In this document: piece by piece, positions 2,810 to 32,019 of the stretch | Position numbering within the stretch: position 1 is the stretch's first letter | Layout: each line of letters starts with the position of its first letter | Origin: Clostridia bacterium | Lineage (GTDB): Bacteria > Bacillota > Clostridia > Christensenellales > Borkfalkiaceae | Length of the DNA: 41,821 bases | Assembly (NCBI GenBank): GCA_017615975.1 | Contig: JAFZYZ010000058.1 | Location: forward strand, 1 to 41,821 | Direction: 5' to 3' | Notes under the pieces: model-generated | What the model saw: only the letters and a program-made list of their open reading frames with translations | What the model was told of the DNA's origin: nothing | Databases searched by the model: none | Program-made: the position numbers and the translations under genes

Positions 2810-3164
2810 TGGTGGAGATGCGGAGACTTGCACTCCGGTCTTACACGCTTTGCTAAAGTTTTCTACATACTTATCCGACGTTTATTCTCGGAAAAACCAC
2901 GCCCATCGGCGGGCTTTGATCTTCCCATAGCAACTTTGTGCCGCCCTAACCGCCGCTGCCGAAACGGTTAAAGCCGTACCCCGCCTTGTTGACGCTTCTT
3001 TCGCTCCCGACGGGAAAAGTGCGAAGAAACGTACGCGCAAATTACGCAGCGTATGCTAATTTTTGATTATCAGCATTTAAATTTAAAGTTTCGTTTTTAC
3101 GAAGCCGAACCTTCGGTATGCTTACGCTTTAACTCACCCGCGCAATCGAATCTGAAACACCCCC
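2810..3164 (-). ncRNA. ssrA: tmRNA (transfer-messenger RNA)
   Basis: A 355-nt tmRNA that rescues stalled ribosomes together with SmpB. The 5' end GGGGGTG pairs with CATCTCC at the 3' end to form the tRNA-like acceptor stem, followed by an encoded ACCA. The 5' part contains the conserved TTTCAGATTCGA. A short reading frame at 3042-3074 encodes the tag ADNQKLAYAA and ends in TAA. The T arm is CGGAG/CTCCG with loop TGCAAGT, so the usual second T of the loop is G. The 5' end lies only 11 bases after the metA stop and smpB is the first gene of the same minus-strand run, so ssrA may be cut from the smpB-metY-metA transcript or use a promoter inside metA. The 3' end borders the decayed mobile island, fitting the known use of ssrA 3' ends as integration sites. 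Confidence 0.93.
3042..3074 (-). other. tmRNA tag-peptide reading frame (ADNQKLAYAA)
   Basis: Within ssrA on the minus strand, GCT at 3072-3074 is the likely resume codon. The frame reads A-D-N-Q-K-L-A-Y-A-A and stops at TAA (3042-3044). The length of ten codons and the A/T-rich upstream element fit tmRNA rules. Most bacterial tags end in ALAA or VALAA; this one ends in AYAA, so the residue three from the end is Tyr instead of Leu. Confidence 0.85.
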
Positions 3165-12034: not shown

Positions 12035-12526
12035 CTAACGCGCGGGAATTTCTCCTTCGGTTTTAAGTCCCAAGTAATTTAACTGCCGAAGTGCTTCGTA
12101 AACGCCCACGCAAACCGAGTTGGAAAGATTAAGAGAACGCGTCTCTTCCCGCATAGGCAGACGCACGCACTCCCCGTAATGCTTTTTCAACAAATCTTCG
12201 GGAAGCCCCTTCGTTTCCTTGCCGAACACCAGAAAATCGCCGTCTTTATACTCAACTTCCGAGTGGATATTCTTGGCCTTCGTCGAGAAAAACCAGAAAT
12301 TTTTGCCGTTATAGAACTTGTCCATAACTTCTTCTATGCTGTCGTAATAGTAGATATCGACGAGATGCCAGTAGTCAAGTCCCGCCCTTTTTAAGTACTT
12401 GTCCGAAACTTCAAACCCGAGCGGGCGTACCATATGCAAGTTGCAACCCGTAACCGCCGCGGTGCGCGCGATATTGCCCGCGTTCTGCGGAATTTCCGGT
12501 TCTACCAAAACTATGTTAAGCGCCAT
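12035..12526 (-). CDS. trmL: tRNA (cytidine/uridine-34 2'-O)-methyltransferase TrmL
   Basis: A 163-residue SPOUT-fold enzyme, normal TrmL length. It adds a 2'-O-methyl group to the wobble base of tRNA-Leu isoacceptors, using SAM bound in a trefoil knot. Family blocks are LVEPEIPQNAGNIARTA near the N-terminus, the central LVFGKETKGLP and the C-terminal knot with RSLNLSNSVCVGVYEALRQ. It starts 17 bases after the nitrilase-fold gene and ends the run that begins with the SpoVB-like gene, so it is probably translated from the same message. The ribosome site, AAGG, lies about ten bases upstream. The identification is firm; the exact tRNA targets are inferred from the family. Confidence 0.94.
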   Translation of the reverse strand: MALNIVLVEPEIPQNAGNIARTAAVTGCNLHMVRPLGFEVSDKYLKRAGLDYWHLVDIYYYDSIEEVMDKFYNGKNFWFFSTKAKNIHSEVEYKDGDFLVFGKETKGLPEDLLKKHYGECVRLPMREETRSLNLSNSVCVGVYEALRQLNYLGLKTEGEIPAR

Positions 12527-12543: not shown

Positions 12544-13224
12544 TTAATATCCCGAATTAAAGTCGCGGTAAAGCCCGCGCTGTCTTAAACTGATTAAATG
12601 GAAATCCTTTTCGATTTTGATTTTGCTTTTTACTATTTTGCCGCCGCCCGACATCACTATGTTGCCCTTTATATCCGCAACCGCCGCGTAGTTTTTGGCG
12701 CAAAGCGCCATACTCACCCCGTTTGCGAACGCCCCCGCGCGCAGCATTATTTGCGGCATAGGCCCTTCGAGTTTCTTAAACACGCAGATTATTATATCCG
12801 CGTCGCACATTGCAAGCACCCTTGCCGATTCGGGGAAAAACAAATCTTCGGCGACGATTACGCCTATTTTACCCGCACCCGTATCGTAAACCCTGAAATT
12901 TCCGCCCGCTACGAACTCGCTTTCGTCCAAGGCGTGCGCCATATCGCTTACGCCTAAAATCTTGCCCTTGTCGGCGATTACCGCAGAGTGGCGAAACACC
13001 CCGTACGCGTCTGTATCGCACCCGCAGACAACCACGCTTGACAGTTCGCGCGAAAGTCTAGCCAAATCCTGAAAATATTCCGTTTCGCCAGCAAGTTCCT
13101 TCTTATAACTTACAAGCCCCAACCCGTTAAAGCCGAACACAAGAACGTCGCTTTTTATCGCCGCGGACATTTTTTCCTGCCAAACGGTGTCAAGCGAATC
13201 CGCGGTAATAAAACAAATTTCCAT
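12544..13224 (-). CDS. Nitrilase-fold (carbon-nitrogen hydrolase) protein lacking the Glu-Lys-Cys triad
   Basis: A 226-residue protein that aligns by eye along the nitrilase superfamily but is shorter than the usual 260-280. The fold landmarks remain: SDVLVFGFNGLGL at the first catalytic segment, VIADKGKILG before the second, GKIGVIVAEDLFFPESARVL at the nucleophile elbow, then LRAGAFANGVSMALCAKN. The residues that do the chemistry do not: the Glu of the PE motif is replaced (G31-F32), the Lys of the YRK-H motif by M95 (SDMAHAL), and the Cys of ICYD by A125 (VAED). It is therefore likely a pseudoenzyme with a binding or scaffolding role, or an unknown activity. It lies between dus and trmL, two tRNA-modification genes, in a tight same-strand run, with a GGAGTG ribosome site. 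The role is unknown. Confidence 0.75.
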   Translation of the reverse strand: MEICFITADSLDTVWQEKMSAAIKSDVLVFGFNGLGLVSYKKELAGETEYFQDLARLSRELSSVVVCGCDTDAYGVFRHSAVIADKGKILGVSDMAHALDESEFVAGGNFRVYDTGAGKIGVIVAEDLFFPESARVLAMCDADIIICVFKKLEGPMPQIMLRAGAFANGVSMALCAKNYAAVADIKGNIVMSGGGKIVKSKIKIEKDFHLISLRQRGLYRDFNSGY

Positions 13225-13283
13225 ATTTTAAGCCACTCCCCGAAAAGACCTTTATATATTCTATTTCGGAAAAGGCTTTTTTG

Positions 13284-14228
13284 TTAAAGATATTTTCTTA
13301 AAAGCCGTTCGGTTTCTTCCGCGCTTACAGACTGCATTATTTCCGCGCGATAAGTCTTGGAATTTTCCACCCGCTTAAAGTAGTAGTTGACGAATTTGCG
13401 GAATTCTATCGCCGCTCTTTTGTCGCCAGACATTTCCGCTTCCTTTTTTAAGTGCTGTATTGCAAAATCCTTTACGGTTGTTATATCGCCCGTAATTTCT
13501 TCGCCGGAAATTTCCGAGAAGATAAACGGGTTCGCTATCGCGCCGCGCGCTATCATAACCCCGTCCGCACCCGTTCTTTCCATCATAATATCCGCGTCTT
13601 TCTCGGTGAAAATGCCGCCGTTTGCGATAACTGGTATATTTACCGCCCGCTTTGCGCGCGCTATCGCGTTAAAATCCACTTCGCCCGAATAATAGGCTTC
13701 GCGCACTCTGCCGTGCACGGTTATTAAAGAAGCGCCCGCACCTTCCGCCATCTTGGCAAATTCCGCCGCTATATCGTCCCCCGCCTTTATGCCCGAACGG
13801 ATTTTTACAGTTATTACCTTGCCGCTTTTAACGCACTCTTTAATTATGCTTTCCGCAAGTTTTATATCGGCGAGTAGCGCGCTGCCTTCGCCGTTTTTCA
13901 CTATCTTCGGCACGGGGCAACCCATATTTATATCTACGATTTTATAGTATTTAAGGTATTCGCTCTCACAAGCCCAGCGCATAAAATAAGGTTCTCGCCC
14001 GAAGATCTGCGCCGCCGTCCTGTCGTAGTCGTCGGTCTTTAACAGTTTTTCGTTGTTCTTGCCGCCGTAATACAGCCCCTTTGCGCTAGTAAGTTCGGTA
14101 AAGGCAAGCCCTACGGACATGGGCGTGATAACGCTTCGGAAAGCGTAATCGGTAAACCCCGCCATAGGCGCTAAAAAAAGATTGTTATAAATGGGCACGC
14201 ACCCCGATTTTAATGCCCGAACCTGCAT
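13284..14228 (-). CDS. dus: tRNA-dihydrouridine synthase (Dus family)
   Basis: A 314-residue flavoenzyme that reduces uridine in the tRNA D-loop, using FMN and NADPH. The barrel blocks are in order: LAPMAGFTDYAFR (19-31), FTELTSAKGL, AAQIFGREP, VDINMGCPVPKIV with catalytic C104, VKIRSG, ITVHGRVREAYYSG, VIANGGI and GVMIARGAIANPFIF. The helical C-terminal domain with FRKFVNYYFK follows. It resembles the DusB-type enzymes of Bacillota. Its first 44 bases overlap the end of the SpoVB-like gene, implying translational coupling. Downstream is the nitrilase-fold gene, then trmL. The start codon is the first ATG with the conserved barrel onset close behind; a start further in would cut the first strand. 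Confidence 0.94.
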   Translation of the reverse strand: MQVRALKSGCVPIYNNLFLAPMAGFTDYAFRSVITPMSVGLAFTELTSAKGLYYGGKNNEKLLKTDDYDRTAAQIFGREPYFMRWACESEYLKYYKIVDINMGCPVPKIVKNGEGSALLADIKLAESIIKECVKSGKVITVKIRSGIKAGDDIAAEFAKMAEGAGASLITVHGRVREAYYSGEVDFNAIARAKRAVNIPVIANGGIFTEKDADIMMERTGADGVMIARGAIANPFIFSEISGEEITGDITTVKDFAIQHLKKEAEMSGDKRAAIEFRKFVNYYFKRVENSKTYRAEIMQSVSAEETERLLRKYL

Positions 14229-15573: not shown

Positions 15574-15601
15574 TATCTCTCCGCGCGGACGGCGCAAAAA
15601 C

Positions 15602-15636
15602 AAACCCCGAAACGCGCCTTATGCGTTTCGGGGTTT
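15602..15636 (-). terminator. Rho-independent terminator after ddh
   Basis: A perfect 14-base stem (15602-15615 with 15623-15636; arm AAACCCCGAAACGC) with a 7-base loop, followed on the minus strand by GTTTGTTTTTG. Confidence 0.9.
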
Positions 15637-15639
15637 AAG

Positions 15640-15706: not shown

Positions 15707-16681
15707 TTAAAGCAGGGTTTTGAACGCCTGTTCGGGATCTAAAGGATAGAGATATTTTAACGGAATATCGAACACCGTTTTCACGCCCGTTTCGCCTTTT
15801 TTATACAGTCTATACACGGCGCGCGCGTAAGCCGTCAGCACGCTGCCAGTAAATTCGGGGTTGGAATCGAGTTTTAAAGAGAGTTGCAACAGTTCGGAAT
15901 TTTCGTCCGTGGTTTTGCCCGAACGGATTACCACGCCGCCGTGCGCTAATTTGCCGTGGTTTGCCTTTAATTCTTCTTCTGAAATAAAATGCACCGTAGT
16001 ATCGTAGTCGGAAAAATAGTTGGGCATTTCCTTTATTTCTTTTTCTATACGCGTCCTATCCGCGCCCTCTTCCGCCACGACGAAACACTCTCTCGCGTGT
16101 TTTTCGCGCACGGAAAGTTCGGGGTTTTCGCCGTTTCTGACTCTTGTCAGCGCGTCTTCTTTCGGCACGGTGTACTGGATAGCGTTTTTAACGCCCTTAA
16201 TTCGCCTTATCGCGTCGCTATGCCCCTGCGATACGCCCTTGCCCCAGAAAGTATAGTCCTTGCCGTCGGGCAGCACCGAACCGAAAAGCAGCCTTGCAAG
16301 CGAAAAGACGCCGGGATCCCAGCCCACGCTTATAAGACCTATCTTACCGTTTTCCTTGGCGATTTTATCGAGTTTTTCAAAATATTCGGGAATTTTAGCG
16401 TGCGTATCGAAAGAATCCACCGTGTTAAAATCCTTGATATAACCCGCTGTCGTTGCGGGAAGATCCGTCGCCGAACCGCCGCAGAGTATAAGCACGTCTA
16501 TTTCGCCCTTAAATTTCGGCAAATCGTTTACGGAATAAACCTTATAACCCGTTATAGGCTTAACCGTTTCAGGCTGTCTTCTGGTGAACACGCCCACGCA
16601 CTCAAAATCTTCGGCTTTATCAACCGCAAGGCACACGCCCCTGCCGAGATTGCCGTAGCCGACTATTCCTACTTTTATCAT
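15707..16681 (-). CDS. ddh: meso-Diaminopimelate dehydrogenase
   Basis: A 324-residue NADP-dependent enzyme, normal length. It makes meso-diaminopimelate directly from tetrahydrodipicolinate, feeding peptidoglycan and lysine. The nucleotide site is VGIVGYGNLGRGV at residues 4-16, followed by GVFTRR, which favours NADP. Family blocks include LILCGGSATDLP, TVDSFDTHAKIP, ISVGWDPGVFSL and FWGKGVSQGHSDAIRRI, then HARECFVV and GVVIRSGKT. It has its own promoter in the gap shared with spoIIE and a strong terminator. The one-step route replaces the succinylase or acetylase branches. In spore formers DAP precursors also supply dipicolinate. Nothing in the sequence looks altered. The ribosome site is a weak GGTAAAG. 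Confidence 0.96.
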   Translation of the reverse strand: MIKVGIVGYGNLGRGVCLAVDKAEDFECVGVFTRRQPETVKPITGYKVYSVNDLPKFKGEIDVLILCGGSATDLPATTAGYIKDFNTVDSFDTHAKIPEYFEKLDKIAKENGKIGLISVGWDPGVFSLARLLFGSVLPDGKDYTFWGKGVSQGHSDAIRRIKGVKNAIQYTVPKEDALTRVRNGENPELSVREKHARECFVVAEEGADRTRIEKEIKEMPNYFSDYDTTVHFISEEELKANHGKLAHGGVVIRSGKTTDENSELLQLSLKLDSNPEFTGSVLTAYARAVYRLYKKGETGVKTVFDIPLKYLYPLDPEQAFKTLL

Positions 16682-27653: not shown

Positions 27654-27727
27654 GCAGGTGTAGTTCATCGGTAGAATGAGAGCTTCCCAAGCTTTAGAGG
27701 AGGGTTCGATTCCCTTCACCTGCTCCA
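27654..27727 (+). tRNA. tRNA-Gly (anticodon CCC)
   Basis: A 74-nt cloverleaf: acceptor GCAGGTG/CACCTGC, discriminator T and encoded CCA. The D stem is GTTC/GAAT, the anticodon stem AGAGC/GCTTT, and the loop TTCCCAA gives anticodon CCC, which reads GGG. The T arm is GAGGG-TTCGATT-CCCTT. It stands alone, with its own promoter and a terminator whose stem begins inside the CCA end. Confidence 0.95.

Positions 27728-31944: not shown

Positions 31945-32019
<75 letters not shown>

Follow-up and report, generated by a model that had tools for sequence, protein, structure and literature searches.

A nitrilase-fold protein that has lost its catalytic residues and is probably kept for a different role across an order of gut Clostridia

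The window analysed here, a stretch of DNA of 41,821 nucleotides taken at its full length, carries on its minus strand a gene for a 226-residue protein, hereafter NIT, whose reading frame contains no internal stop codon (Table 1). Its upstream neighbour encodes a dusB-like tRNA dihydrouridine synthase and its downstream neighbour is trmL, both assigned with Pfam and TIGRFAM-type models. Because trmL begins only 17 bp past the NIT stop codon, the short gap suggests that the two genes lie on one transcript, and they are probably co-transcribed. A phage origin of NIT was rejected, as a comparison with PHROG gave no match. Further upstream, between the gene at 15707-16681 and murJ, positions 15601-15637 of the minus strand hold a strong hairpin with a run of T behind it that resembles a terminator, and the stretch from murJ to dus therefore probably starts a new transcription unit. 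Elsewhere in the window lie a tmRNA gene (2810-3164, minus strand; Rfam RF00023, 143 bits) and two tRNA genes (27654-27724 and 31945-32017).

Table 1. Coordinates of NIT, its neighbours and the sites discussed in the text
Feature	Position	Strand	Basis or remark
trmL, downstream neighbour	12035..12526	-	PF00588, E 8.7e-34; TIGR00185 above cut-off
NIT, 226-aa pseudo-nitrilase coding sequence	12544..13224	-	ATG at 13224-13222, stop at 12546-12544; PF00795, AlphaFold model and fold matches
Codon D127, Asp of the canonical CxD motif	12844..12846	-	Alignments; 62/62 rows
Codon A125, replacing the catalytic Cys	12850..12852	-	Alignments; most orthologues have Gly, Asp, Ala, Glu, His or Asn
Codon M95, replacing the catalytic Lys	12940..12942	-	Profile-profile and canonical-set alignments
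Codon D94, gained near-invariant acid directly before the lost Lys	12943..12945	-	Alignments; 61/62 rows; canonical enzymes mostly Arg or His
Codon E43, gained near-invariant acid	13096..13098	-	Alignments; 59/62 rows order-wide; Ala or Gly in canonical enzymes
Codons G31-N33, shortened loop at the catalytic Glu site (alignment gap)	13126..13134	-	Alignments including the canonical set
Likely ribosome-binding site, GGGGAG	13236..13241	-	Sequence; upstream alignment, in which G57-G59 show 90% conservation or more
Sigma-A-type promoter, TTAACA-N18-TAGAAT, overlapping the dus stop codon	13258..13287	-	Pattern conserved upstream of NIT in the genus
dusB-like tRNA dihydrouridine synthase, upstream neighbour	13284..14228	-	PF01207, E 3.5e-65; TIGR00737

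NIT belongs to the nitrilase superfamily by fold and by descent. It scored 50.9 bits against the Pfam CN_hydrolase model (PF00795; cut-off 23.2), and a profile-profile comparison by hhalign gave a probability of 99.8. The AlphaFold model, built from the genus-level alignment (A3) alone, predicts the alpha-beta-beta-alpha fold with good confidence (pLDDT 83.6, pTM 0.84). Its top PDB matches were nitrilase-superfamily enzymes, with Z scores of 24.1 to 6ypa over 214 residues and 24.0 to 1j31, and the nearest folds overall were those of solved nitrilases, N-carbamoylputrescine amidases and Nit2 proteins (Z 23-24, about 214 residues).

The catalytic residues of this fold are all missing. As a comparison set we used 23 canonical nitrilases from the same bacterial class, in which the Glu, Lys and Cys of the triad were each present in 23 of 23 sequences and the fourth catalytic Glu in 20. 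At the corresponding sites of NIT, the Glu loop is gapped, Met95 stands in place of Lys, Ala125 in place of Cys, and the loop of the fourth Glu, which lies between Lys and Cys, is deleted; hhalign gave the same register for these replacements. The deletion of the latter loop is a gap after residue 101 in all 50 family rows, as against a Glu in 20 of the 23 canonical rows. NIT has neither the Glu-Lys-Cys triad nor the fourth Glu by which C-N hydrolase enzymes are defined. A triad shifted to other positions was ruled out, because the order-wide alignment (A1) contains neither an invariant Cys nor an invariant Lys.

Orthologues of NIT were found in 34 of the 37 genomes of the genus, with 57-96% identity where full length and nearly all of exactly 226 residues. 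The three genomes that lack the gene also lack dus and a close trmL, and one of them, which is 96% complete, lacks pgk as well, so these cases look like assembly gaps rather than true absences. An apparent fusion of NIT to a 780-residue partner in one genome proved to be an artefact of a GC-rich open frame, with the gene starting at the usual Met. Across the order, about 60 of 297 sampled genomes carry a full-length or nearly full-length member; the close relatives that bear names are metagenome-assembled genomes of gut and rumen Clostridia, one of them labelled Christensenella sp. UBA1259. Identity of the order-wide rows to the 226-residue protein falls to 17%, and the most diverged members can only just be aligned. 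Those most diverged are seven proteins of one family (f32) of about 180-203 residues, in which the C-terminal part and most of the scaffold residues are gone but D94 (Asn in one) and D127 remain. Many orthologues (six noted) fall below the Pfam CN_hydrolase cut-off or receive no score, and they are therefore probably annotated as hypothetical, which would hide the family.

None of the order-wide members examined carries the triad. In the tree, 62 rows of the NIT family fall on one side of a branch and 31 other nitrilase-fold rows on the other (support 100/97), and since the clade holds no triad-bearing copy, a recent loss was ruled out. Outside the order, the sampling covered 391 genomes from the class and 398 from the phylum; their nitrilases are longer and mostly triad-bearing. 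The f73 proteins, considered below, are the one clear exception.

NIT is under purifying selection. Among close pairs within the genus (Nei-Gojobori; 31 usable pairs, those with dS above 2 being excluded), the median dN/dS was 0.076 for NIT, 0.147 for dus and 0.053 for trmL. Within the genus, the loops of the old active site are among the best-conserved parts of the protein (mean entropy 0.43-0.67 vs 0.88 overall); across the order, positions 95 and 125, the former Lys and Cys sites, vary freely. Three acids are invariant or nearly so order-wide, namely E43 and D94, which are new relative to canonical enzymes, and D127, which is shared with them (Table 1). In Escherichia coli Lnt, the acid two residues after the catalytic Cys, E389, forms a hydrogen bond with Y333, which precedes the catalytic Lys by two residues (PMC5500890). 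E389 is the equivalent of D127, and by analogy this suggests that D127 sits beside the strand that bears D94. With an enzyme fold, lost catalytic residues and maintenance by selection, NIT qualifies as a putative pseudoenzyme as judged from its sequence.

These results bear out and strengthen the observation made in a first-pass annotation of the window, which had described an intact frame between dus and trmL, fold landmarks of a nitrilase, and replacement of Glu, Lys and Cys, to which the loss of the fourth Glu can now be added. It had also proposed that selection maintains the gene for something other than C-N hydrolysis, a proposal that, as regards hydrolysis by the superfamily mechanism, is supported by the dN/dS of NIT relative to dus, by the lack of the triad in every orthologue and by the position of the family on one side of a branch. 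The structure prediction and dN/dS estimates that it had suggested returned a nitrilase fold and purifying selection, and neither of the two findings that it had named as contradicting it, a shifted triad or homologues with intact triads marking a recent loss, was encountered.

Its further idea, that the position between dus and trmL points to a role around RNA modification, is not supported. The gene order murJ-dus-NIT-trmL, after which a Na/Pi cotransporter gene and pgk come in most cases, does hold throughout the genus, and dus also adjoins NIT in four other families (f10, f18, f20 and f24), so the linkage that the first-pass annotation had suggested surveying is conserved to this extent. 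In other groups it does not, NIT having moved away from dus in genera g26-g29 of family f1 and in families f14 and f32. Elsewhere, a row of spoVT-spoVB-mazG-dus precedes NIT, which is followed by pgk-tpi-gpm or by trmL, or NIT lies between trmL and spoIIE, beside a DegV gene, or upstream of yicC-gmk-priA. As to a link to sporulation, the presence of spo0A does not discriminate, since the gene was found in 252 of the 297 order genomes at a strict cut-off. Furthermore, NIT has a promoter of its own: the pattern TTAACA-N18/19-TANNAT occurs upstream of the gene in all 37 genus loci, the spacer being 18 bases long in 35 of them, whereas only 5 of 1850 single-base shuffles matched. NIT therefore need not depend on transcription of dus. 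The linkage with dus is old, but because the neighbours differ across families and the promoter is private and conserved, it seems to reflect an inherited arrangement of genes more than a shared pathway. As the Pfam search also found no RNA-binding domain in NIT, joint action with Dus and TrmL in the modification of tRNA, for which the genus-wide order and the adjacency to dus in four further families would speak, is in our view very unlikely.

The catalytic residues are all lost, yet the gene is under strong selection and three acids are fixed near the old active site; NIT is therefore probably kept, throughout an order of gut Clostridia, for a job other than C-N hydrolysis. The reading that we favour, at a probability of roughly one half, is that it has the fold of a nitrilase but no longer acts as a hydrolase, and that it carries a rebuilt acidic site, which most likely makes it a factor that binds a ligand or a cation. 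NIT would be a soluble descendant of an active C-N hydrolase in which amide or nitrile hydrolysis by the superfamily mechanism has been lost. With the four catalytic residues gone and the loops of the Glu and the fourth Glu deleted, selection has kept the fold, the frame, the length and the private promoter. The new acids E43 and D94 and the old D127 may mark a rebuilt site on the floor of the former pocket, where a cation or a cationic or amine-bearing small molecule could bind, and NIT would then be no amidase but a factor that binds a ligand and serves in regulation or as a scaffold. The conserved acids could instead serve folding or dimer contacts. A more specific version, in which the fold was rebuilt once, in this clostridial order, into a metal- or cation-dependent E43-D94-D127 site with an activity or a sensing function unrelated to C-N hydrolysis, we offer only tentatively.

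The alternatives differ in what they make of the acids. If E43, D94 and D127 ran a different, possibly metal-assisted reaction, NIT would be a new enzyme and not a pseudoenzyme; persistence of three near-invariant acids amid near-total divergence is typical of catalytic or metal sites, and the pocket loops are highly conserved within the genus. This is nevertheless unlikely, as an invariant nucleophile is absent, only 19 of 62 rows retain H97, and the shortened loops, to judge from the deletions, probably leave a more open pocket. Equally, a purely structural or protein-interaction scaffold, with the dimer or oligomer surfaces of nitrilases kept and the pocket idle, would fit the retention in the genus of parts of the canonical helix after the Cys (FFPE and RA..NG) and the accessory role proposed for a known triad-altered nitrilase-fold protein (PMC3850990); across the order, however, E132, R135 and N168 are not conserved whereas the three acids are, which makes this reading improbable too. 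NIT is also unlikely to be the dead subunit of an active free-standing paralogue, because the only other nitrilase domain found in its own genome sits inside a 643-residue protein, the length of which would fit a glutamine-dependent NAD synthetase. As for a decaying gene or a chance open reading frame, the lost triad and the fast drift outside the genus are what one would expect, but the constant length of 226 residues in nearly all genus members, the low dN/dS, the promoter in every genus locus and the orthologues across the order refute it, leaving it next to no probability. The preferred reading of a ligand- or cation-binding factor comes with a clear and testable site, defined by order-wide conservation and a fixed acidic signature.

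In the open-access literature searched, we found no free-standing nitrilase-fold protein that has lost the whole triad and been kept over long evolution. The closest known systems in fold are the PH0642 and Pyrococcus abyssi nitrilases (1j31, 6ypa and 3ivz) and N-carbamoylputrescine amidase (5h8i-5h8l), which match NIT at Z scores of about 23-24 over 214-215 residues. The best sequence matches likewise were proteins of the archaeal type (E 3.5e-10 to 5.6e-9), with the putrescine amidase at about 5e-5. These PH0642-type and putrescine amidase enzymes possess Glu-Lys-Cys and have about 262-300 residues, whereas NIT, at 226 residues, lacks the triad entirely. The Lnt homologue BCG_2279c / Rv2262c-2261c, in which the catalytic Cys is replaced by Ser and which is thought to be accessory (PMC3850990), resembles NIT as a nitrilase-fold protein with an altered catalytic Cys; unlike NIT, it is an Lnt-type membrane protein in which only the Cys is reported to be altered, and the two are not closely related. 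A further parallel is the partly dead nitrilase f73 from another clostridial order, in which Lys has become Met, as in NIT, and the Cys is likewise lost, here replaced by Ser. It differs from NIT in keeping the catalytic Glu and a full length of about 273 residues, and its residues at the D94 and E43 sites are Arg and Ala, respectively. In four loci and their wider surroundings, its gene directly precedes trmL, and pgk follows at a short distance; the order of a DegV gene, the nitrilase gene and trmL is seen in two loci, and it continues into cggR-pgk-tpi in one of the wider loci. The f73 rows group with the canonical rows in the free tree, but an AU test did not reject a single clade with the NIT family (p 0.496), and f73 may show the order in which the catalytic residues were lost.
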